Positions 3,636-54,314 of a stretch of DNA of 64,000 bases are shown here, piece after piece. Each line of letters begins with the position of its first letter. The stretch's first letter is position 1. The DNA lies in assembly GCF_014250515.1 (NCBI RefSeq), contig NZ_CP060202.1:1-64000 (forward strand). The letters are read 5' to 3'. The position numbers were made by a program, and so were the translations under genes. The notes beneath the pieces were generated by a model that was not told where the DNA came from, searched no databases, and saw only the letters and a list, made by a program, of their open reading frames with translations. The stretch comes from Hymenobacter sediminicola (GTDB lineage: Bacteria > Bacteroidota > Bacteroidia > Cytophagales > Hymenobacteraceae).

Positions 3636-4367
3636 CTATATCTTCCGTTTCAGCTCGAAATGCTTACCCAGATACACGCGCCGCACCATTTCGTCGGCGG
3701 CCAGTTCTTCAGCGGTGCCGGCTTTCAGCAGTTTGCCCTCGAAAAGCAGATAGGCCCGGTCCACGATGCTGAGCGTCTCGTTCACGTTGTGGTCGGTGAT
3801 GAGGATGCCGATGTTCTTGTGCTTGAGCTTGGCCACAATGCCCTGGATTTCCTCTACAGCAATAGGGTCGACGCCCGCGAAAGGCTCATCGAGCAGCACG
3901 AATTTGGGGTCCACGGCCAGGGCGCGGGCTATTTCGGTGCGCCGCCGCTCGCCGCCGCTCAGCACCTTGCCCAGGTTCTTGCGCACATGCGTCAGGCTGA
4001 ACTCATTGAGCAGTTCCTCTACTTTGTCTAGTTGGGCCTGGCGGGGCATTTTGGTCATTTCGAGCACCGACAGGATGTTCTCTTCCACGCTCAGGTCGCG
4101 GAACACGCTGGCCTCCTGGGCGAGGTAGCCGATGCCAAGGCGGGCCCGCTGGTAGATGGGCAGCCGGGTGATGTCCCGGTCGTCGAGGAATATCTTGCCC
4201 TCATTGGGCTTCACCATGCCCACGGTCATGTAGAAGGACGTGGTTTTGCCGGCCCCGTTCGGCCCGAGTAGTCCCACAATCTCGCCCTGTTCCACGTGCA
4301 ACGACATATCGTTGACGACGGTGCGGGCTTTGTATTTCTTAACCAGGTGTTCGGCTCTGAGAATCAT
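3636..4367 (-). CDS. lptB: LPS export ABC transporter ATP-binding protein LptB
   Basis: LptB is the cytoplasmic ATPase that powers extraction of lipopolysaccharide from the inner membrane with LptFG. The 243-residue product has a Walker A motif 'GPNGAGKTT' at ~35-43, a Q-loop 'YLAQEASVF', the signature 'LSGGERRR' and Walker B '[12 protein letters not shown]', in the LptB-type order and length. I chose the ATG at 4367 over an upstream in-frame Met because homology begins at MILRAEHL and a TACCTTTG promoter box lies only 7 bp upstream. lptC is 7 kb away, and lptF and lptG are not in the window. Confidence 0.95.
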
Positions 4368-19641: not shown

Positions 19642-20769
19642 ATGATACTCGAAAGCCTGCACCTACTGTTTTTCAAAAATTACGACGAGGCGAATCTGCG
19701 CTTTTCTCCGCGCATCAATTGCTTTGTTGGGGACAACGGCAGCGGCAAAACCAATTTACTGGATGCTATTCATTACCTCTCTCTTACCAAGAGTGCCTTC
19801 ACTTCCTTGGATGCGCAAAGCATTAAGCAGGGGGAAGAGTTCTTTGTGGTCAAGGGCCGTTTCCAGCAGGGCGACACAGTGGTTTCGGCAACAGTTGGCA
19901 GCGAGGCCATCCAGGTAAGTCTGCGTGTTGGGCAGAAGAAAGCCGTCACTCACGACAAGCAACCCTACGAGCGGATATCTGACCACATTGGCCGTTACCC
20001 TGCTGTTCTTATCTCCCCTTATGACACAGACCTTATCCGGCAGGGTAGCGAAGAGCGGCGCAAGTACTTCGACAGCCTTATTTCTCAGCTGGACCACGAG
20101 TACCTGGAACTGCTGATTTCCTATAACCACATCTTACGTCAGCGCAACTCGTTGCTTAAGCTGGCCGCCGAGCGCCAAGGCGGTTACGACCGTGATTATT
20201 TGCTTGTACTTGATGAGCAGTTGGTGCCGGCTGGCCTGAAGATCGTGGATGCTCGTCAGCAGTTTCTAGTGGAGTTCACACCCATTTTCCAGCGCCACTA
20301 TCAGCAGCTTGCTGATAGCCGCGAGGTAGTGACGCTTTCTTATAAGAGTCAGTTGCCCGAAGCTGACTTTGCGAAACTGCTGAGAATACAGGAGCGCAAG
20401 GACCTTGCTCTTCAACGAACAACAGTTGGACCTCATAAGGATGACTTCGTTTTCCTGATGGATGAGCTGGCAGTTAAAAGTTACGGCTCGCAGGGGCAGC
20501 AGAAGTCCTATGTTATTGCGCTAAAGCTCGCGCAGTTTGAAATCCTTTCCCTGCGTCAACAACAAAAGCCCCTACTCCTACTCGACGACATATTTGACCG
20601 GCTGGATGAAAAGCGTATCACCCGTCTTCTACAGTTGGTAGCCGACCACACCTTTGGGCAAGTATTCCTGACCGATACCCACCTGGACCGTACCGACCTT
20701 GCGCTTGCTACTATCACGGACCAAATCAGTCGGTTTCAGGTTGAGAATGGTAGTGTTAGGCCCCTCTGA
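19642..20769 (+). CDS. recF: DNA replication/repair protein RecF
   Basis: RecF is an SMC-like ATPase that directs RecOR-mediated loading of RecA at gapped DNA. The 375-residue product has Walker A 'GDNGSGKTN' at 30-38, the Q-loop region, the ABC signature zone 'GSQGQQKSYVIALKLAQ' near 290, and Walker B 'LLLLDDIFDRLDEKR' near 315, with no long coiled coil, as in RecF. It is divergent from pdhA (69 bp apart) and leads to the DUF721 gene 73 bp downstream, an association common in Bacteroidota. Confidence 0.96.
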   Translation: MILESLHLLFFKNYDEANLRFSPRINCFVGDNGSGKTNLLDAIHYLSLTKSAFTSLDAQSIKQGEEFFVVKGRFQQGDTVVSATVGSEAIQVSLRVGQKKAVTHDKQPYERISDHIGRYPAVLISPYDTDLIRQGSEERRKYFDSLISQLDHEYLELLISYNHILRQRNSLLKLAAERQGGYDRDYLLVLDEQLVPAGLKIVDARQQFLVEFTPIFQRHYQQLADSREVVTLSYKSQLPEADFAKLLRIQERKDLALQRTTVGPHKDDFVFLMDELAVKSYGSQGQQKSYVIALKLAQFEILSLRQQQKPLLLLDDIFDRLDEKRITRLLQLVADHTFGQVFLTDTHLDRTDLALATITDQISRFQVENGSVRPL

Positions 20770-20842: not shown

Positions 20843-21160
20843 GTGAAAAAAGCAAGCTCGCCTGAGAATTCCCGTCAAGCGGATATTGTGCCTCTCAAAG
20901 ACAGCATCAAAGCCCTGCTAAAAGTATATCGTCTGCAGGGCAAGCTCAACGAGGTAACAGTAGTGGCCAACTGGGAAAAGGTGATGGGCAAGGCGGTTGC
21001 GCTTAAGACGAAGGAGATATATGTCAGCAATGGAAAGCTGTTCGTGCGGCTCACTTCTGCCCCACTCAAGCACGAGCTGGTCATGGCAAAGACCAGGGTT
21101 TTGGAGCTCATCAATGCTGCCGTAGGTGAAACGGTAGTCAAGGAAGTAGTATTCCTATGA
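20843..21160 (+). CDS. DUF721 (DciA-like) protein
   Basis: The 105-residue protein is a DUF721 domain, the family that contains DciA, the ancestral bacterial loader of the replicative helicase DnaB. Visible features are 'DSIKALLKVYRLQGKLNEV', the conserved Trp/Gly of 'ANWEKVMGKAVA' (residues ~43-54), and the 'LFVRLTSAPLKHEL' strand-helix region. The start is GTG. It follows recF on the same strand. Helicase-loading activity is a family inference, not shown here, but the position beside recF and near a likely origin fits a replication role. Confidence 0.85.
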   Translation: MKKASSPENSRQADIVPLKDSIKALLKVYRLQGKLNEVTVVANWEKVMGKAVALKTKEIYVSNGKLFVRLTSAPLKHELVMAKTRVLELINAAVGETVVKEVVFL

Positions 21161-22256: not shown

Positions 22257-22272
22257 TGTTTCACGTGGAACA
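22257..22272. promoter_or_regulatory. parS-like centromere site
   Basis: TGTTTCACGTGGAACA differs at one position from the classic ParB target TGTTTCACGTGAAACA and at one from the fully palindromic form TGTTCCACGTGGAACA. It lies in non-coding DNA between convergent genes, next to the helix-turn-helix gene and 26 kb from the predicted oriC. Chromosomal parS sites usually sit within the origin-proximal region, so the location agrees. No parA/parB genes are in the window. ParB loading here would organise and segregate the origin domain; this is inference from the sequence match. Confidence 0.75.
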
Positions 22273-45382: not shown

Positions 45383-46786
45383 ATGTTTGGCTTAGAGCCT
45401 CACGTGCTGCTGCTGCTAATTCTCTGTCTGGTAGCGGCCTGCGCGTTCGAATTTGTCAATGGCTTCCACGATACGGCTAACGCCGTAGCAACAGTTATCT
45501 ACACCAACTCGCTGCGGCCCTGGGTGGCCGTGGTCTGGTCGGCGTTCTGGAACTTCATTGGCGTACTTACCGGTGGCATTGCCGTGGCCATGGGCATCGT
45601 GTATCTGCTGCCCGTCGAAAGCCTCGTCGATCAGAACGTGTATCATGGCATTGCCATGGTAGGCGCCCTGATTATTGCGGCCATTATCTGGAATGTAGGC
45701 ACCTGGTACTACGGACTGCCCTCGTCTTCCTCGCATGCTCTGATTGGGTCTATTCTGGGCGTGGGCATTGCGTTTTCGCTGCTACCCGGTGGCCAGAACG
45801 CAGCCGTGAACTGGAGCAAAGCCGGTGAAACCGGTATTGCGCTGCTCGTAGGCCCATTGCTGGGCTTCTCGCTCACCATCGGGCTGATGTTTCTGCTCAA
45901 GCGCTTCGTGCGTTCCAAGGCCATTTTCAAGGAGCCACACAAGCGCAAGCCGCCACCCATCTGGATTCGCCTGATTCTGATTTCTACCTGTACGCTGGTG
46001 AGCTTCTTTCACGGCTCCAACGATGGGCAGAAGGGCGTAGGCCTGATCATGCTCATCCTGATTGGTATTGTGCCGGTGCATTTTGCGCTCAACCACAACC
46101 TCAATCCGCTAGACATGCGCGACTCGCTGGGCCGGGTAGAGCAGGTGATGCAGAAGCTAAATACTACCGAACTGAGTGCCGCCGACCGGAAGCTGCTCAC
46201 GGAAGTGCAGGCCCAAACTGCTACGCTGGACCAGATTTTTGCGGGCAAAACCAATGTAAAACAACTGCCGGAGCAGGCTCGGTTCGAAATTCGGAAAGCC
46301 ATTTTGCTGCTGTACAACCGCGCCAAAAAGCTGGTGGCAAGCGAAAGAATTCCTCTCAGCGCCGCCGACCGCAAGACGTACGAGGACAGTATTGCCCAGA
46401 TGCGCACTTTCACGGACTATGCCCCCTGGCAGGTGTCGCTGATGGTGGCTGTTTCGCTGGGCTTGGGCACCATGATAGGCTGGCAGCGCATCGTGAAGAC
46501 GATAGGCGAGCGTATCGGGAAGGAGCACCTGACCTATGCACAGGGTGCTTCCTCGGAGCTCGTAGCCGCCGTCATGATTGGTGCCACTACTGGCTATGGT
46601 CTGCCCTCGTCTACCACGCACGTGCTGTCGTCGGCTATTGCCGGCTCCATGGTAGCTAACCGCGGCATCAAGAATCTGAACCCGCAGATGGTGCGCAACA
46701 TTGCGCTGGCCTGGGTGCTAACACTGCCCGTTACTATGGCCCTGTCAGGTGGGCTGTTCCTCTTATTCCGAGCCTTCGTAGACTAG
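45383..46786 (+). CDS. pit: PiT-family inorganic phosphate transporter
   Basis: PiT permeases import phosphate with a proton or sodium ion. The 467-residue protein has the paired signature repeats 'NGFHDTANAVATVIYT' and 'GLPSSSSHALIG' in the N-terminal half and 'GSNDGQKGVGLIML' with 'GLPSSTTHVLSSAIAGSM' in the C-terminal half. There are about ten membrane helices and a long cytoplasmic loop at ~250-360. The start is ATG downstream of a clear promoter. It is divergent from glyS. Confidence 0.95.
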   Translation: MFGLEPHVLLLLILCLVAACAFEFVNGFHDTANAVATVIYTNSLRPWVAVVWSAFWNFIGVLTGGIAVAMGIVYLLPVESLVDQNVYHGIAMVGALIIAAIIWNVGTWYYGLPSSSSHALIGSILGVGIAFSLLPGGQNAAVNWSKAGETGIALLVGPLLGFSLTIGLMFLLKRFVRSKAIFKEPHKRKPPPIWIRLILISTCTLVSFFHGSNDGQKGVGLIMLILIGIVPVHFALNHNLNPLDMRDSLGRVEQVMQKLNTTELSAADRKLLTEVQAQTATLDQIFAGKTNVKQLPEQARFEIRKAILLLYNRAKKLVASERIPLSAADRKTYEDSIAQMRTFTDYAPWQVSLMVAVSLGLGTMIGWQRIVKTIGERIGKEHLTYAQGASSELVAAVMIGATTGYGLPSSTTHVLSSAIAGSMVANRGIKNLNPQMVRNIALAWVLTLPVTMALSGGLFLLFRAFVD

Positions 46787-46828
46787 TTTAGTGCATCGAA
46801 CTCTGAACGCAGTATCTTAGCTGAATAC

Positions 46829-46864
46829 AAAAAGCCGCTCTTTTGCAAGAGCGGCTTTTTTTTA
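46829..46864 (+). terminator. Terminator after the phosphate transporter
   Basis: AAAAAGCCGCTCTT pairs with AAGAGCGGCTTTTT around a short loop, 43 bp after the stop, and is followed by a T run. Confidence 0.92.
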
Positions 46865-46951
46865 TGGCTTTGTTTTCCTAGGCGCGGAAAATGAGGATAA
46901 CTCCTGCTCTTCTGTTGCCTTATGCAGCTAAATACGTACCAAATCAGACAC

Positions 46952-46994
46952 TTATCCACTTATCCACAGTAGTTTCTGCAGTTTTTGTGGATAA
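46952..46994. promoter_or_regulatory. Satellite DnaA-box cluster
   Basis: Two perfect DnaA boxes, TTATCCACA at 46960-46968 and its reverse at 46986-46994, plus a one-mismatch box TTATCCACT at 46952-46960. They lie in 215 bp of non-coding DNA between the phosphate-transporter terminator and the acidic gene's stop. This is the second arm of a possible bipartite origin. Confidence 0.75.
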
Positions 46995-47001
46995 CCATAC
47001 G

Positions 47002-47487
47002 CTAGGCAGGCCACTGCACGTCCAAGTCCTCAGAGATGAAGACGCCGAAATTCACGAACTGCAACTCATCCTCATCAAAGTAAAGGTCAATCATCTCCTT
47101 CTCATAGGAGATGCGCATTTCGCCGGTATCCATCTTCTCTACTTCACTAGACTCATGGCCGTGGCGGCTCATCAGTTCCTGAATCTGCTCCGGGGATTTG
47201 CCGTGAATGTTCTCGCCATACAAGCGCATGCCGGGATGGTCGGTTTCGATGCAGCTTAGGCGGAAGTCATCCTCCCGGTCGAAGTACAGCGAGTAGCCTT
47301 CCTCGAGATAGTTCCAAGCTTGGTGCTCGAACTCGTCATCGTCTTCAGACTCTTCAATTTCTTCAGGCTCCCCCATCAGGGCGCGCACCTGGTCCATGGT
47401 AGCTCCAAAGCGCAGGGGGCCCATGCCGGTACCCAGAATGATTTCGTTCTCGTCGGTGCTTGAAGGCGTCGGGGTAGTGGGGGTCAT
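47002..47487 (-). CDS. Acidic hypothetical protein between the DnaA clusters
   Basis: A 161-residue, strongly acidic protein (a run of EESEDDDEF-type residues near 60). It has no signal peptide or membrane helix; a 'ILGTGMGPLRFGATMDQVRALMG' start suggests a beta-helix-type element near residue 17-40. No family is recognised. It has its own TACCTTTA promoter box at 47521-47528, right after the preceding gene's stop, so it is independently transcribed. The ATG at 47487 is downstream of that box. Confidence 0.65.
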   Translation of the reverse strand: MTPTTPTPSSTDENEIILGTGMGPLRFGATMDQVRALMGEPEEIEESEDDDEFEHQAWNYLEEGYSLYFDREDDFRLSCIETDHPGMRLYGENIHGKSPEQIQELMSRHGHESSEVEKMDTGEMRISYEKEMIDLYFDEDELQFVNFGVFISEDLDVQWPA

Positions 47488-47520
47488 ATCTCTGGGGAAT
47501 GAGGTGATGCTTGGAGAGAG

Positions 47521-47528
47521 TAAAGGTA
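47521..47528 (-). promoter_or_regulatory. -7 box (TACCTTTA) for the acidic gene
   Basis: A one-mismatch TAnnTTTG element lies 34 bp upstream of the 47487 start, and 13 bp past the stop of the DUF4385 gene. Confidence 0.5.
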
Positions 47529-47540
47529 GCCAATGCGGGG

Positions 47541-48032
47541 TCACTTCCCGTAGCGGGCTTCAAATTCGGCACGTTGCCGCAGGTACTCCGGATGCTGCTT
47601 AGCCTCATCCCACTTGCGCTTAAAGATGGCTGCAGCCTCCGCTTTTTCGGGGTCTTCAGGAGTGCGAGGCAGCTCGGGGCGGCCGTGGGCTCCGCTCTGG
47701 CCTTTTTTATCCGCCGGCACAGGACCATCGTATTTTTTGCCGCCTTGGTGGTTGGCATAGCGCCGGGCCCGCGTGAAGCCCATCTGCAGAAATTTGCGGG
47801 CCATATCGGCACCCACAAAATCGTTTGCCTTCAGATAGGCCTCAAATAGCCCGTAAATTGTTTCGGAAGACTCCCGGGCCACAGCCGGGGTCCGGAAGCG
47901 CCAGTGGGGCAGGATCTCGCCTTTATAAGGCTGTACCAGTAGCACGCCCTGCTCGCCTTTGCCCACGCGGTACAACTCGGGGTGCTGGCGCAAGTCGAGA
48001 GAACGGAAATCCTGGTTGTAGTTGAATGGCAT
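47541..48032 (-). CDS. DUF4385 family protein
   Basis: The 163-residue protein carries the DUF4385 signature: 'DFRSLDLRQHPELYRVGKGE', 'QGVLLVQPYKGEILPHWRF' and 'DMARKFLQMGFTRARRYANH'. A basic Pro/Lys/Glu tail follows. The function is unknown; the many conserved Arg/Trp/His residues suggest an enzyme or nucleic-acid-binding role. It borders the predicted origin. A longer in-frame ORF to 48170 runs into the origin's DnaA boxes and adds a Lys-rich leader, so the ATG at 48032 is preferred. Confidence 0.85.
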   Translation of the reverse strand: MPFNYNQDFRSLDLRQHPELYRVGKGEQGVLLVQPYKGEILPHWRFRTPAVARESSETIYGLFEAYLKANDFVGADMARKFLQMGFTRARRYANHQGGKKYDGPVPADKKGQSGAHGRPELPRTPEDPEKAEAAAIFKRKWDEAKQHPEYLRQRAEFEARYGK

Positions 48033-48936
48033 ACGAAGCGGGAGAGGCGCACTCTGTATACGCCAAATCGGGCCGCAGGATGGCCGCACTGTTTCGCCAG
48101 CTTTTCCGGAGTACCTGCGGCGCTTTGCTTTTTGCGGAGCCTCTTTTTTTTTGAGGCCTGACTTGTCCACAGGGTTAATAACTTTTTAAAAGAAGAAATT
48201 TTAAGAAATCTTTTTAATCTCTGTCGTTAGGGCTGTTTATAAGTGGACAATCCGAAAGAGTAATCCACAGGGCTGATAACTTGTGTACAGCTCCTGGTTT
48301 ATGCACCGTCTATCAACAGGGTATGTTGATAGTAAAGTAGTGTATAAGAGATAGTTAACTAGGTTTTTCACAATCCACATAGCTTATCCACTAATCCACA
48401 ATTCACAGCATAGGGGCTGTGTGGATTGTGGTGAAAACGGGTGTGGATTGTCCACGTGTATCCACACGCTGTGGACAGAGAAAAGGGGGTGCGGCAGCCC
48501 GGAGAATCCCAAAAAAACTTATCCTATTTTTCTCCACGGGTTATCCCCAGGTTGTGGCAGTATTATCCACAGATTAAGCCCATTGACCAAGTGGGCGTGG
48601 AAAAACCTGTGGAATAGGTGTGGAAAGATGCCTAAAACCCTTCTCAGTAACCGGAAACCGCTCATCAGGAATGTGGAAAGCCGTGAAAACCGCTCCTACA
48701 ACCTGTGTTTTAGGATATATGCCGTGGCCAAAGAAGAATCCGTGGAACATAGCATGCTGCTTAAAACAGCCATTGCCGCCTGTATTCGCGGATTTCAGTT
48801 TAGTCAAGTAGCTTTCAAAAACGTTCCACGGCCTTAGGCTCGTTCATTCAAGAGTAGGAGACGAAACATAACCAGGGCAAGGAAGCATGAGTAGCTCTAA
48901 GCAGACACTCTACCAGAGGCCGCAGACTACAGCGCA
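48033..48936. other. Predicted replication origin region (oriC)
   Basis: This 0.9-kb stretch has no credible gene. From 48163 to 48571 it holds a dozen or more DnaA-box-like nonamers on both strands: TTGTCCACA at 48163, TAATCCACA at 48261, TTATCCACT at 48384, TAATCCACA at 48392, TGTGGATTG at 48420 and 48442, TTGTCCACG at 48448, GTATCCACA at 48458, TTATCCCCA at 48541 and a perfect TTATCCACA at 48563. Next to the first box is a 46-bp tract (48175-48220) with only 6 G/C bases, a candidate unwinding element. mnmG is 3.5 kb downstream. The gene dnaA itself is not in the window. Confidence 0.8.
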
Positions 48937-48984
48937 GCAAAAAGCCCTGCGACCACCGAATACGGTAATGGCAGGGCTTTTTGC
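48937..48984 (-). terminator. Terminator after the Ig-like lipoprotein gene
   Basis: GCAAAAAGCCCTGC pairs with GCAGGGCTTTTTGC around a 20-nt loop, and is followed by a U run on the minus strand. It lies 14 bp past the gene's stop. Confidence 0.8.
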
Positions 48985-48997
48985 AAAGAACGTTTAG

Positions 48998-50617
48998 CTA
49001 AAATGCGAGGCGTAGGTCTTCCACTTCCCAGTTGGCGCGCACTTGCACCGGCTGGGGCAGCAGATATACCGGCTCAGGAGGCAGCAACAACTTAGGATCG
49101 GCACCCCGCCAGCGGCCATCGGCATCGGCATCAATCAGGACCCGGATGGTGTAAGCGCCTGGGGCCATCCGGTCGAAGCGGAAGGTGGCGCGGGGGCTGT
49201 TTAGAGTGGCGACGATGGTACCTTGCGCATCAAGCAGCTGTACATCGTAGCGTTTGTACTTGGTTTGAATGGTACCTGCCAGACTGCCCGTTCCAGATTG
49301 CTCCGTGACACGCAGCCGCAACGGTTTTGCGGCCAGCCGCTGCCCCGATATAGTAGTAAGGTTAATCGTATCGAGGCGCAGCGTGAGGATGGATTTGGCC
49401 TTGGTATTGAGCAGAACCGTCAGGCGCGACCGGTCGGGGTTCAGAGTGCCATCTGTGCCGAGCACCAGCGGCCGGCGTGCCGTGGAGTCTTCCTGCAAGG
49501 TCGCAAAAGGCTTGCCCGTAGCAATTCGGACAGGCTCCGTGAAGATAAAGCGGACTTCACCCTGCCGGTATACTTCGCGCGGATTGCCCTCTACCGAATA
49601 GATAGGTGGGCGGCGACTTGGGGCAGTTCCCTGAAACTTCACGTTGATAGTGTCGCGGCCGGTGTTGCCGGCGCTATCGGTGGCAGCCAGCAGGTAGCGG
49701 CCTTCCGTGAGAGCTGCAGTCCGGAAAAGCGCGACGGTGCGGCCTGCTTCTGCTAGCTGGATGGCTTCAGACAAGGCCGGCGTAGTTGCGCCGCCCAGGG
49801 GGGCCAGCACCGCGGTACGCAACCCTTCGTTGTAGCTGACACGGTATTGAGTAGGAGCTGCCTGCTGCCCGCTCACCAATGGCCGGCGGGCATCGGGGCG
49901 TACCAGTTCCAGCTGAACCGTATCGGGGCGTGGGCCGATGGTGACCGGCTGGGGCAGGTAGGCTATTTTCTCCCCTTCGTCGTAGCGGGTGTTCTGGTTT
50001 TTGTCGGCCAGAGCATAGAGACGGTAACGGCCGGCTTTCAGGTTGCGCAGTTTGTAAGCGCCGGCCTTGTCGGTGCGGGCCAGATAGTAGGGTTTGCCCT
50101 TGCGCAAGGCTGCCGTGTCAGTTTCCGGATAGAGGAGTACCGCGGCGGCATCAGCCGGTTTCTGGGTCAGCAGGTCGCGGACGGTGCCCTGTACCGCGCC
50201 CGAGTCCAGTACGGCCCCGGTGCTGAAACTCACCGTGGCCTCGGCTGCGGGCAGGCTCTCCGTAATATCGGAAATAGAGGTGCCGAAGTTGAACGAGTAC
50301 GTGGTGTTTTCCTCGAGCGGTTTCTCAAACAGCAGCGTTATGGCGTTGCGCTCCTCGCGTACCTTGTACTTGTTGTCTTCGGCAATGGTGGGCGCAATGA
50401 TGAGGTTCTTCTGCAGATCCTTCACCTGCACAGGCTCTGAAAACACCAGTCGTATTTCCTGCGTGCGTGCGTTGCGGGCACCATTGGCCGGCGAAGAACT
50501 GACTAGCTTAGGCGGCGTCACGTCGCGCGGGCCACCCTGCGGCGAACTGATAGAGGCACAGCCCGCCACACCAGCCGCCACCGAAAACAGAAGAAGAAGA
50601 TTAGCGCGAGCGGACAT
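48998..50617 (-). CDS. Ig-like (Big_5) domain lipoprotein
   Basis: The 539-residue lipoprotein has a signal ending in 'VAGCA' (Cys ~20). A Big_5-type Ig-like domain follows at ~30-135 ('DVTPPKLVSSSPANGARNA', 'EENTTYSFNFG'), then a carboxypeptidase-regulatory-like repeat region ('AYKLRNLKAGRYRLYALAD') and further beta-rich segments to the end. Such proteins are typical outer-surface lipoproteins of Bacteroidota, some SusE/F-like or cohesin-like in role; no function can be assigned. Its start overlaps the preceding small gene's end by 17 bp. Confidence 0.85.
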   Translation of the reverse strand: MSARANLLLLFSVAAGVAGCASISSPQGGPRDVTPPKLVSSSPANGARNARTQEIRLVFSEPVQVKDLQKNLIIAPTIAEDNKYKVREERNAITLLFEKPLEENTTYSFNFGTSISDITESLPAAEATVSFSTGAVLDSGAVQGTVRDLLTQKPADAAAVLLYPETDTAALRKGKPYYLARTDKAGAYKLRNLKAGRYRLYALADKNQNTRYDEGEKIAYLPQPVTIGPRPDTVQLELVRPDARRPLVSGQQAAPTQYRVSYNEGLRTAVLAPLGGATTPALSEAIQLAEAGRTVALFRTAALTEGRYLLAATDSAGNTGRDTINVKFQGTAPSRRPPIYSVEGNPREVYRQGEVRFIFTEPVRIATGKPFATLQEDSTARRPLVLGTDGTLNPDRSRLTVLLNTKAKSILTLRLDTINLTTISGQRLAAKPLRLRVTEQSGTGSLAGTIQTKYKRYDVQLLDAQGTIVATLNSPRATFRFDRMAPGAYTIRVLIDADADGRWRGADPKLLLPPEPVYLLPQPVQVRANWEVEDLRLAF

Positions 50618-51975: not shown

Positions 51976-52449
51976 TCACAGCAGGCAGTCTGCCTCAGTT
52001 CGCTCCGGGCTTCTTACCGCAGGGTTAGGCTGGTTAATAAGTGAGTCTAGGCCGTCAGCATCGAGTCGTATGAGAAGTGAGTCTACACGTTCTGCCTCTA
52101 TTGCCCCTGGGCTGCCAGGAGGCGGCTCACCTATTGAGGTGCCGAGTCCGTTGAGCACCAGCACCGGGACTGTAGCAACAGCGCAAAGCCCCAAGCCGAG
52201 GGTAGCCCACAGCAGCCAGGCCAGGGCCGGGCCCCACCTCCGCTGGAGGAGCCTGCGGACCATCACCACAAGAGCAAGCAACCCTTGTGCTACCAGCAGC
52301 AGCCAGCAGCCTGTTAGCCAGAAGTGAGCTTCCGCAGACCGGCGGTTAATGAACAGCTCGATAAGCAACCCACACACGACAAGGCCATTCAGCAGACCCG
52401 TCCAAAACAAGGAACGGGACCAATAACTGGCTACCGTCCCGGTTTTCAC
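51976..52449 (-). CDS. Membrane protein coupled to mnmG
   Basis: A 157-residue protein with three hydrophobic helices (about 10-32, 43-65, 73-100) and an acidic, Pro-rich cytoplasmic C-terminal tail. Its GTG start overlaps the mnmG stop in a GTGA arrangement, so translation is almost certainly coupled. No family is recognised. Confidence 0.65.
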
Positions 52450-54314
52450 CGCCCCAGATACACCATCAGCACCGACACATCGGCCGGCGAGACACCGCTG
52501 ATGCGCGAGGCCTGGCCCAAGGTTTCGGGCTGAATTTTGAGCAACTTCTCGCGGGCTTCGTGCGAGAGGGCCGGCATGGCGGTGTAGTCGAGGCGGCCCT
52601 GAATCACGAAGTTTTCCAGCTCCTGTACGCGGGCGGCCTGCTGGTGCTCCTTCTCCAGGTAGGCCTCGTACTTCACCAGAATTTCGGCCTGCTCCAGCGC
52701 GTCGGGGCGGTACGGGGCCAGGGCCAACGTCAACTCGGGCAGCACGCGGGCCAGGGCCGGCAGCTCAATGCCAGGGCGGCGCAGCAAGTTCACGGCGCGG
52801 GTTTTCTCGCTGATAACAGCCGAGCCGATTTCGGTGAGCCAGCCGTTGATGTCCTGGGCCTCGATGCCGAAATTCTTCAGCAGCTTGGCTACTTCTTTGG
52901 TCTGCTGCTCCTTTTCGCGCACCAGCTGCATGCGCTCCTCCGAGGCCAAACCCAACTCGTAGCCCAGCGGAGTGAGGCGCAGGTCGGCGTTGTCCTGACG
53001 TAGTAGCAGGCGGTGCTCAGCGCGGCTCGTGAACATGCGGTAGGGCTCGTCGGTGCCTTTGTTCACGAGGTCGTCGATGAGCACGCCGATGTAGGCTTCG
53101 CTCCGCTTCAGCACGAAGGGCGCTTTGCCGTGCACCTTGTTGTGGGCGTTGATGCCGGCCATGAGACCCTGGCAGGCAGCCTCCTCGTAGCCCGTGGTGC
53201 CGTTGATCTGGCCCGCGAAGTAGAGGTTCTGGATCAGCTTGGTTTCCAGGGTGAGCTGGAGCTGCGTCGGCGGGAAGAAGTCGTACTCGATGGCGTAGCC
53301 GGGGCGGAACATCTTGGCGTTTTCGAAGCCAGCAATTTTGCGCAGGGCGCGGTACTGCACGTCCTCGGGCAGGCTGCTCGAAAAGCCGTTCACGTACACT
53401 TCCACCGTGCTCCAGCCTTCGGGCTCCACAAAAATCTGGTGGCGGTCCTTGTCGGCGAAGCGGTTGATTTTGTCCTCCACCGACGGGCAGTAGCGCGGCC
53501 CCAGGCCCTTGATGCGGCCCTGGAACATCGGCGACTTCTCGAAGCCTTCCTTCAGGATTTCGTGAACTTCGGAGTTGGTGTAGGTGATGTAGCACGGGCG
53601 CTGGTTGCGCAGCGCGGGCGTGTCGAGGTACGAAAACTTGCTGGGTTCAGCGTCGCCGGCCTGCTCCTCCATTTTGCTGTAGTCGAGGCTGCGGCCGTCC
53701 ACGCGGGGCGGGGTGCCGGTTTTCATGCGGCCGGCCTCGAAGCCCAATTCAATCAGCTGCTCCGTGATGCCGGTGCTGCCTTTCTCGGCCGCCCGGCCGC
53801 CGCCAAACTGCTTCTCCCCGATGTGGATGAGGCCGTTCAGAAACGTACCGTTGGTGAGCACCACCGATTTGCCCCGGAACTCAATGCCGAGCTGCGTTTT
53901 CACGCCCACGCACACGCCGTCTTCCACCACGAGGCCCGTGACGGCTTCCTGCCAGAAATCCACGTTGGGCGTCTGCTCCAACGTCATGCGCCACTCCTCG
54001 GCAAAACGCATCCGGTCCGACTGCGCCCGGGGGCTCCACATGGCGGGGCCTTTGGAGCGGTTCAGCATGCGGAACTGAATCATGGTTTTGTCGGTGATAA
54101 GGCCCGACTGGCCGCCCAGCGCGTCCACCTCGCGCACAATCTGGCCCTTCGCCACCCCGCCCATGGCCGGGTTGCACGACATCTGCGCGATGGTGTTCAT
54201 GTTCATCGTCACCAGCAGGACCTTGGAGCCCATGTTGGCAGCCGCGGCGGCGGCCTCGCAGCCGGCATGCCCGGCTCCTACTACAATGACATCGTATTCT
54301 TCTTGCTGAAACAT
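52446..54314 (-). CDS. mnmG: tRNA uridine-5-carboxymethylaminomethyl modification enzyme MnmG (GidA)
   Basis: MnmG, an FAD-dependent partner of MnmE, installs the cmnm5 modification at wobble uridine 34 of several tRNAs. The 622-residue protein has the N-terminal dinucleotide-binding '[10 protein letters not shown]' at 12-21, '[18 protein letters not shown]' near 200 and the second FAD motif region '[17 protein letters not shown]' near 383, with the helical MnmE-interacting C-terminus. Length is normal. It lies 3.5-4 kb from the predicted origin, as gidA does in many bacteria. It is translationally coupled to the membrane protein downstream. Confidence 0.96.

Follow-up and report, generated by a model that had tools for sequence, protein, structure and literature searches.

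A probable chromosomal replication origin in Hymenobacter sediminicola, distant from dnaA and accompanied by a conserved second DnaA-box cluster

Genes and features of the locus

The window (the whole stretch of DNA analyzed, 64,000 bp) covers positions 1 to 64000 of a single contig of 4,511,071 bp, and the assembly is estimated to be 99.95% complete. An array of DnaA boxes lies between the start of the minus-strand DUF4385 gene, at 48032, and the end of a Big_5-domain gene, at 48998 (Table 1). Beyond DUF4385 and a small gene, the product of which is a conserved acidic small protein, lies a second cluster of boxes (46892 to 46994), which includes two perfect boxes in inverted orientation. An inverted repeat, detected as a self-match at 48937 to 48984 and carrying A/T runs at its ends, separates the array from the end of the Big_5 gene and, judged by its letters, looks like a two-way terminator.

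An earlier note, made from the letters of the window, had placed mnmG (gidA) within 4 kb of the candidate origin and recF, a DciA-like gene, and a parS-like site 26 to 29 kb from it, and all of these were identified (Table 1). Across the genome, the parS pattern had an exact match at 22257, a one-mismatch match at 4288, and no others. Since the reversed pattern matched equally often, the number of parS matches is no evidence; the position of both hits is, as they fall within 22 kb of the contig start and <44 kb from the candidate oriC. The array is overlapped by an open reading frame (ORF) of 138 amino acids with a GTG start (48421 to 48837), which has no Pfam match and was taken not to be a gene. 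The description of this stretch in the earlier note as gene-free stands as far as judged genes are concerned, although a mechanically possible ORF runs through it.

Table 1. Coordinates of features in the window
Feature	Coordinates	Strand	Remarks
recF	19642-20769		TIGR00611
dciA, presumed helicase operator	20843-21160	+	PF05258, E 3.9e-15
parS	22257-22272		Sole exact TGTTNCACGTGNAACA in genome; exact pattern search
Outlying box TTATCCTCA of second cluster	46892-46900	-	In few of the relatives listed
Three-box element	46952-46994		Overlapping forward boxes at 46952 and 46960, reverse box at 46986
Small conserved gene, family unassigned	47002-47487	-	Lies between the clusters; Pfam and NCBIfam searched, no match
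DUF4385 gene	47541-48032	-	Between the two box clusters; PF14328, E 2.1e-69
Main DnaA-box array, candidate oriC core	48163-48680		25 boxes with ≤2 mismatches, both strands; from sequence
DUE-proximal DnaA box TTGTCCACA	48163-48171	+	CACA end towards the A+T tract
A+T-rich tract, presumed DNA unwinding element (DUE)	48172-48220		Begins GGGTTAATAACTTTT; putative unwinding site
GTTAGGG element beyond the tract	48226-48232	+	[GA]TTAGG in 51/65 aligned sequences
Inverted weak-box pair CTATCAACA / TGTTGATAG	48310-48332		Kept (≤2 mismatches) in 45/65 and 59/65
Perfect DnaA box TTATCCACA	48563-48571	+	≤2 mismatches in 65/65, ≤1 in 48/65
Four weak reverse boxes, closing end of array	48596-48680	-	≤2 mismatches in 56, 61, 39, and 39 of 65
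Big_5-domain gene, right neighbor of array	48998-50617	-	Homologue beside box array in two other-family genomes
mnmG (gidA)	52446-54314	-	PF01134; 3.8 kb from array

The main DnaA-box array

Seven nonamers within one mismatch of TTATCCACA start at 48163, 48261, 48384, 48392, 48458, 48541, and 48563, and 25 nonamers within two mismatches lie in the segment from 48153 to 48700. Dinucleotide shuffles of that segment (n = 500) gave a mean of 0.19 one-mismatch boxes (maximum, 2) and 2.11 two-mismatch boxes (maximum, 8). Given 515 one-mismatch boxes per 4.51 Mb across the genome, the occurrence of seven in 409 bp had a Poisson P value of ~9e-14. These counts agree with the dozen or more nonamers within one or two mismatches, on both strands, that had been noticed earlier, and the single perfect copy was found at 48563 as described. 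The span given at that time, 48163 to 48620, needs widening, since the reverse boxes continue to 48680, and the cluster at 46892 to 46994 had been missed.

The whole genome contained 515 one-mismatch and 19 perfect boxes, compared with 584 and 31, respectively, for a reversed control pattern. Because the total falls below that of the control, the DnaA box is not enriched genome-wide, and clustering is what stands out. One-mismatch clusters were scanned in 1.25 of the 4.51 Mb, and perfect boxes were listed for the entire genome. With seven boxes (≤1 mismatch) per 500 bp, the array was the densest cluster in the 1,251,071 bp scanned, followed by four boxes at 46892 to 46994 and three at 204537. 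No other group of three perfect boxes within 2 kb was found anywhere in the genome. As at an oriC, the boxes thus cluster beyond chance in DNA taken as noncoding, with the 138-amino-acid ORF overlapping.

Conservation of the array in relatives

The relatives of the DUF4385 gene were the best 80 of 245 named, and 65 of them came from Hymenobacter or Solirubrum; the closest among these best 80 was that of H. duratus (99% protein identity). In 30 loci (29 relatives and the locus itself), 6 to 18 one-mismatch boxes were present within ≤1.1 kb upstream of DUF4385, and 64 of the 65 Hymenobacter/Solirubrum loci among the best 80 had 4 to 19 such boxes within 1 kb upstream. L161 (H. montanus) was the exception, with one box upstream of DUF4385 and other ORFs there; candidate causes for the array not being beside DUF4385 in this sequence (L161, 1 to 4342) are an insertion, a rearrangement, or a contig-end effect. 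All 15 loci outside Hymenobacter/Solirubrum among the best 80, from Pontibacter (8), Psychrobacter (2), Acinetobacter (2), Alkanindiges, a Saprospiraceae metagenome-assembled genome (MAG), and a Verrucomicrobia MAG, had zero or one box upstream of DUF4385. Since DUF4385 loci elsewhere are without the array, the array is tied to the Hymenobacter chromosome and not to the DUF4385 gene. In addition, a 2.2-kb query (46780 to 49000) had a match in every one of the 36 other genomes of the genus that were searched; of 22 other-family genomes, 4 had a match, in the DUF4385 coding part only.

Two genomes of another family (L275 and L277) carried 23 and 22 boxes, respectively, in 600 bp, adjoining homologues of the Big_5 gene, a methyltransferase gene, mnmG, and a gene that we label ybeY. 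No DUF4385 or phosphate transporter match (E values up to 1e-8) was found in the 20-kb stretch of either genome. The candidate origin therefore shares its mnmG neighborhood with one or more other families of the order (as seen in two genomes), though dnaA lies 1.16 Mb away here, and this right-hand neighborhood is probably the older one. The same data bear on whether the box cluster is instead a DnaA-controlled promoter region of DUF4385. The array does lie directly upstream of that gene, as such a region would, but DUF4385 occurs without an array at the 15 loci outside Hymenobacter, and the two other-family genomes have an array beside Big_5-mnmG with no DUF4385 match in the 20 kb covered. 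An array of 520 bp and 25 boxes also goes far beyond what is known to be required for promoter control, and this explanation appears exceedingly improbable.

An alignment of 65 sequences was built from 64 loci and the window, leaving out of the best 80 the 15 loci from outside Hymenobacter/Solirubrum and L161. When a box was counted as kept at ≤2 mismatches with 2 nt of slippage allowed, 14 of the 25 window boxes were kept in at least 54 of the 65 sequences, seven in 36 to 45, and four in 2 to 7; the corresponding mean for nonbox positions was 2.1 of 65 sequences, with a maximum of 41 at one position. The box at 48163 was the alignment anchor, so its count of 64 of 65 (≤2 mismatches) arises by construction and is excluded from the conservation argument; 44 of the 65 sequences matched it within one mismatch. 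Both the site and its neighborhood are conserved in relatives, with H. montanus L161 excepted on the DUF4385 side.

The A+T-rich tract

Directly beside the box at 48163, the segment from 48175 to 48220 contains 40 A/T in 46 bases, which matches the six G/C reported earlier, and no other 46-mer in the window is as rich in A+T. Its nearest-neighbor duplex energy ranked first at a length of 46 bp, second at 30 bp, and fourth at 60 bp and was outside the top four at 100 bp; because the ranking drops with other lengths, the tract is not uniquely weak. In each aligned sequence, the DUE box was defined as the box (≤2 mismatches) with the most A+T-rich next 40 bases, a choice that favors finding a tract, and with this definition a tract of at least 31 A/T in 40 lay beside the box in 64 of the 65 sequences (28 of 40 in L154). 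An A+T-rich, putatively unwinding element beside a box, as is usual in an oriC, is thus present. At the DUE-side box, the CACA end faces the tract, which is also the polarity of R1 in E. coli and of boxes 6 and 7 in B. subtilis.

The heptamer TTAATAA lies by the box in just 31 of the 65 aligned sequences, and the DUE motif is thus confined to part of the clade. An order-wide DUE motif, AAAGTTATTAA-n-NGTGGANAA, was tried and dropped: it was present in 16 of 291 genomes, namely, 15 of the 32 Hymenobacter genomes drawn (the genome itself included) and one genome of another family (L092), where it was rejected as an origin, with two one-mismatch boxes in 3 kb.

The arrangement of DnaA box, short spacer, and A+T-rich tract resembles the DnaA-trio type of basal unwinding system (BUS). 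The rule for that system, as given in PMC8287927, asks for at least three 3'-NAN-5' trios no more than 16 nt away from the box. The sequence here is unlike it: base-by-base reading and a rule search found no run of three trios after 48171 in this genome, and TTAATAAC follows the box at 48163 instead. A search over 30 loci, taking the two best forward hits and the best reverse hit per locus, found matches to the rule at the DUE box of at least four relatives (L075, L088, L090, and L091).

Position on the chromosome

GC skew was sampled over 1.25 of the 4.51 Mb of this chromosome and over 0.4 Mb (20 stretches) of each relative. Among 43 sampled 20-kb stretches, the 21 lying right of the site had a mean skew of +0.0132, with 16 positive, and the 22 lying left of it had a mean of -0.0139, with 17 negative; the contrast between right and left was matched by 0 of 5,000 permutations. 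A fit with two skew switches (249 bins of 5 kb) gave a minimum at 0 and a maximum between 2.26 and 2.34 Mb, the antipode of the site being at 2.30 Mb. The best antipodal contrast was 0.0312, near the contig junction, versus 0.0271 at the site; the local cumulative skew minimum lay ~50 kb to the left of the site, and within the window the skew left of the site was also positive on average. The ~50-kb offset was taken to lie within the resolution of this weak skew.

Antipodal fits were also compared with the homologous sites of three other Hymenobacter chromosomes, each assembled as a single contig. In G012, the fit (3.42 to 3.52 Mb) included the homologous site at 3.459 Mb (13 of 5,000 permutations). 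In G031, the fit (2.07 to 2.11 Mb) lay 62 to 102 kb from the site at 2.008 Mb (60 of 5,000 permutations), and in G020 it was at 0.89 to 0.95 Mb, with the site at 0.891 Mb, a weak case in which the contrast alone was not significant (573 of 5,000 permutations). In the sampled skew, a switch opposite the terminus, as is sought at an oriC, thus lies within ~50 to 100 kb of the site, weakly so for G020. A skew minimum far from the region, which had been named earlier as speaking against an origin here, was not seen; the sampled minimum is ~50 kb off on a 4.5-Mb circle, and the maximum is at the antipode.

The dnaA gene was located at 1,203,711 to 1,205,165, outside the window, as had been noted. 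It is therefore not adjacent to the site, from which it lies 1.16 Mb away; a position of dnaA beside oriC is common but not required. The DnaA protein encoded there carries the N-terminal, AAA+ ATPase, and DNA-binding domains that are usual for it. Two one-mismatch boxes lie ≤1.2 kb upstream of the dnaA start, and no array was found there, with at most four boxes (≤2 mismatches) per 500 bp across the surrounding 20 kb. A better box cluster beside dnaA, the other finding that had been named as counting against the site, was thus absent from these 20 kb. No dif was found to fix the terminus: a degenerate dif-like pattern had four hits in the genome versus three for its reversed control. One of these hits, at 2,319,980 near the antipode, was rejected as dif because it was present in 1 of 61 genus genomes, its own.

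An array of this kind could also be a site of DnaA titration or inactivation, similar to datA, that lies near but is distinct from the true origin. DnaA-box-rich regions near oriC titrate DnaA in E. coli, according to an account in PMC12371093, and the distance of ~50 kb between the array and the local skew minimum would suit such a site. Around the skew minimum, however, no array of equal density was found in the sequence that runs from 4.26 Mb across position 0 to 0.27 Mb (a 10-kb gap excepted). Furthermore, titration needs no A+T tract, and one lies by the box in 64 of 65 sequences (the box being chosen for its tract), while the skew origins of three other chromosomes were fitted near the homologous site. 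Titration in place of initiation is accordingly very unlikely.

The three-box element

The second cluster contains a compact element of three boxes, in which the forward boxes at 46952 and 46960 overlap by one base. The distance from 46960 to 46986 is 26 bp start to start and was the same in all 64 testable sequences (63 loci and the window), L159 ending at a contig edge there and thus lowering the total from 65. The overlapping 5' box (46952) was within one mismatch in 43 of these 64 sequences. The box letters are near-invariant, the exception in either forward box being a single C/A position, and among the 17 bases between the 46960 and 46986 boxes, AAAA is kept (54 to 59 of 64 sequences per position) and the end is T/A-rich. 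In L161 (H. montanus), the box pair is retained at the 26-bp spacing on the other side of DUF4385.

The element lies 7 bases from the stop codon of the gene at 47002 to 47487 and 165 bases from the stop of a convergent PHO4-family phosphate transporter gene, and a promoter role is unlikely because it sits between two gene ends in this genome. The main array is ~1.2 kb away, with DUF4385 and the small gene between. The 26-bp three-box pattern (≤1 mismatch) was found in 34 of 148 genomes of the order, 10 of them of the same genus. Eight stretches were inspected, of which seven had been chosen for the three-box pattern and the eighth (G044) for the DUE motif; two of the eight were origin-like and six were not. 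The origin-like stretches, L275 and L277, have the three-box pattern inside a large array. The pattern alone is therefore not diagnostic.

Two conserved box clusters thus flank coding DNA, as in a bipartite oriC. The conservation of the three-box element indicates that the origin is probably bipartite or has an element like DARS, and the element is probably, on our analysis, a second origin sub-site, which is favored over the DARS-like reading. In the latter, the element would be a site that reactivates DnaA and not part of the origin. The cores of E. coli DARS1 and DARS2 have three boxes, one of them opposite, with equal spacing in both, as outlined in PMC5742627. The element likewise has three boxes, one inverted, at a spacing fixed in all 64 testable sequences. 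The likeness covers the number of boxes, the inversion of one of them, and the constancy of their spacing. Unlike E. coli DARS, the element has two boxes that overlap by one base, and it lies 1.2 kb from the candidate oriC; DARS1 and DARS2 are far from oriC in E. coli, as mentioned in PMC4585315. A reactivating site distinct from the origin is therefore the less likely reading, though one of some substance.

Proposed origin and comparison with known systems

The stretch from 48163 to 48680 is very probably the oriC of the Hymenobacter chromosome, judging by sequence. This reading, put forward in the earlier note, draws support from the observed array and tract and the conservation of both (64 of 65 clade loci), from the sampled skew position, with that of three further chromosomes, and from the absence of an array at dnaA. 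In the proposed mechanism, DnaA, which is encoded 1.16 Mb away, would load onto the array at 48163 to 48680, and a filament growing from the box at 48163 would open the tract at 48172 to 48220. The helicase would be loaded next, probably with DciA. DnaA may also bridge the three-box element at 46952 to 46994, as a probable sub-site, to the main array, looping out the two small genes. We infer these binding, unwinding, loading, and bridging steps and assign a probability of roughly 0.94 to the region being the chromosomal oriC that works in this way. A more specific version is put forward tentatively and is considerably less secure: a two-part origin in which the fixed 26-bp three-box element bridges or resets DnaA, as an origin-linked DARS, and a tract of the TTAATAAC type unwinds without DnaA-trios.

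Helicobacter pylori and Bacillus subtilis have a bipartite oriC in which both sub-sites are bound by DnaA and the dnaA gene between them is looped out, as summarized in PMC8235120. The Hymenobacter region resembles those described there in that coding DNA splits the boxes into two clusters, one of which includes the DUE. It differs from them in that DUF4385 and a small gene lie between the clusters, with dnaA 1.16 Mb off, and in that its second cluster takes the form of a compact three-box element that is nearly invariant. Like E. coli oriC, the region has an A+T-rich DUE beside a box. The boxes of the DUE-near half of E. coli oriC share one orientation and those of the far half have the opposite one, in the description given in PMC5742627, and the Hymenobacter array roughly follows this arrangement. 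A further likeness is the proximity of gidA/mnmG, E. coli oriC lying between gidA and mioC in the account of PMC10225481. Unlike E. coli oriC, the array is longer, has mixed orientations in its middle, lies 3.8 kb from mnmG, and has an extra element 1.2 kb away. The candidate origin is of the ordinary bacterial kind and is set apart by its distance from dnaA and by its unusually rigid second box cluster.

A search of one literature library found no paper on a Hymenobacter oriC with DnaA boxes and, judged by titles, none on a bipartite DnaA-box oriC in Bacteroidetes; DoriC may well list predicted Hymenobacter origins. The present locus provides a concrete, testable candidate origin for this genus of Bacteroidota, and the array region would point to the sequence required for a Hymenobacter oriC plasmid. 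The rigid three-box element offers a test case, outside the well-studied models, for origin-linked control of DnaA beyond the classic sub-sites.

Other DnaA-box clusters in the chromosome

Outside the origin region, the next densest cluster in the scanned sequence has three boxes in 40 bp, at contig positions 204537 to 204576 (locus L047). In addition, an inverted pair of perfect boxes, 16 bp apart, was noticed at 4128182 to 4128206 (locus L020), by eye in coding DNA.
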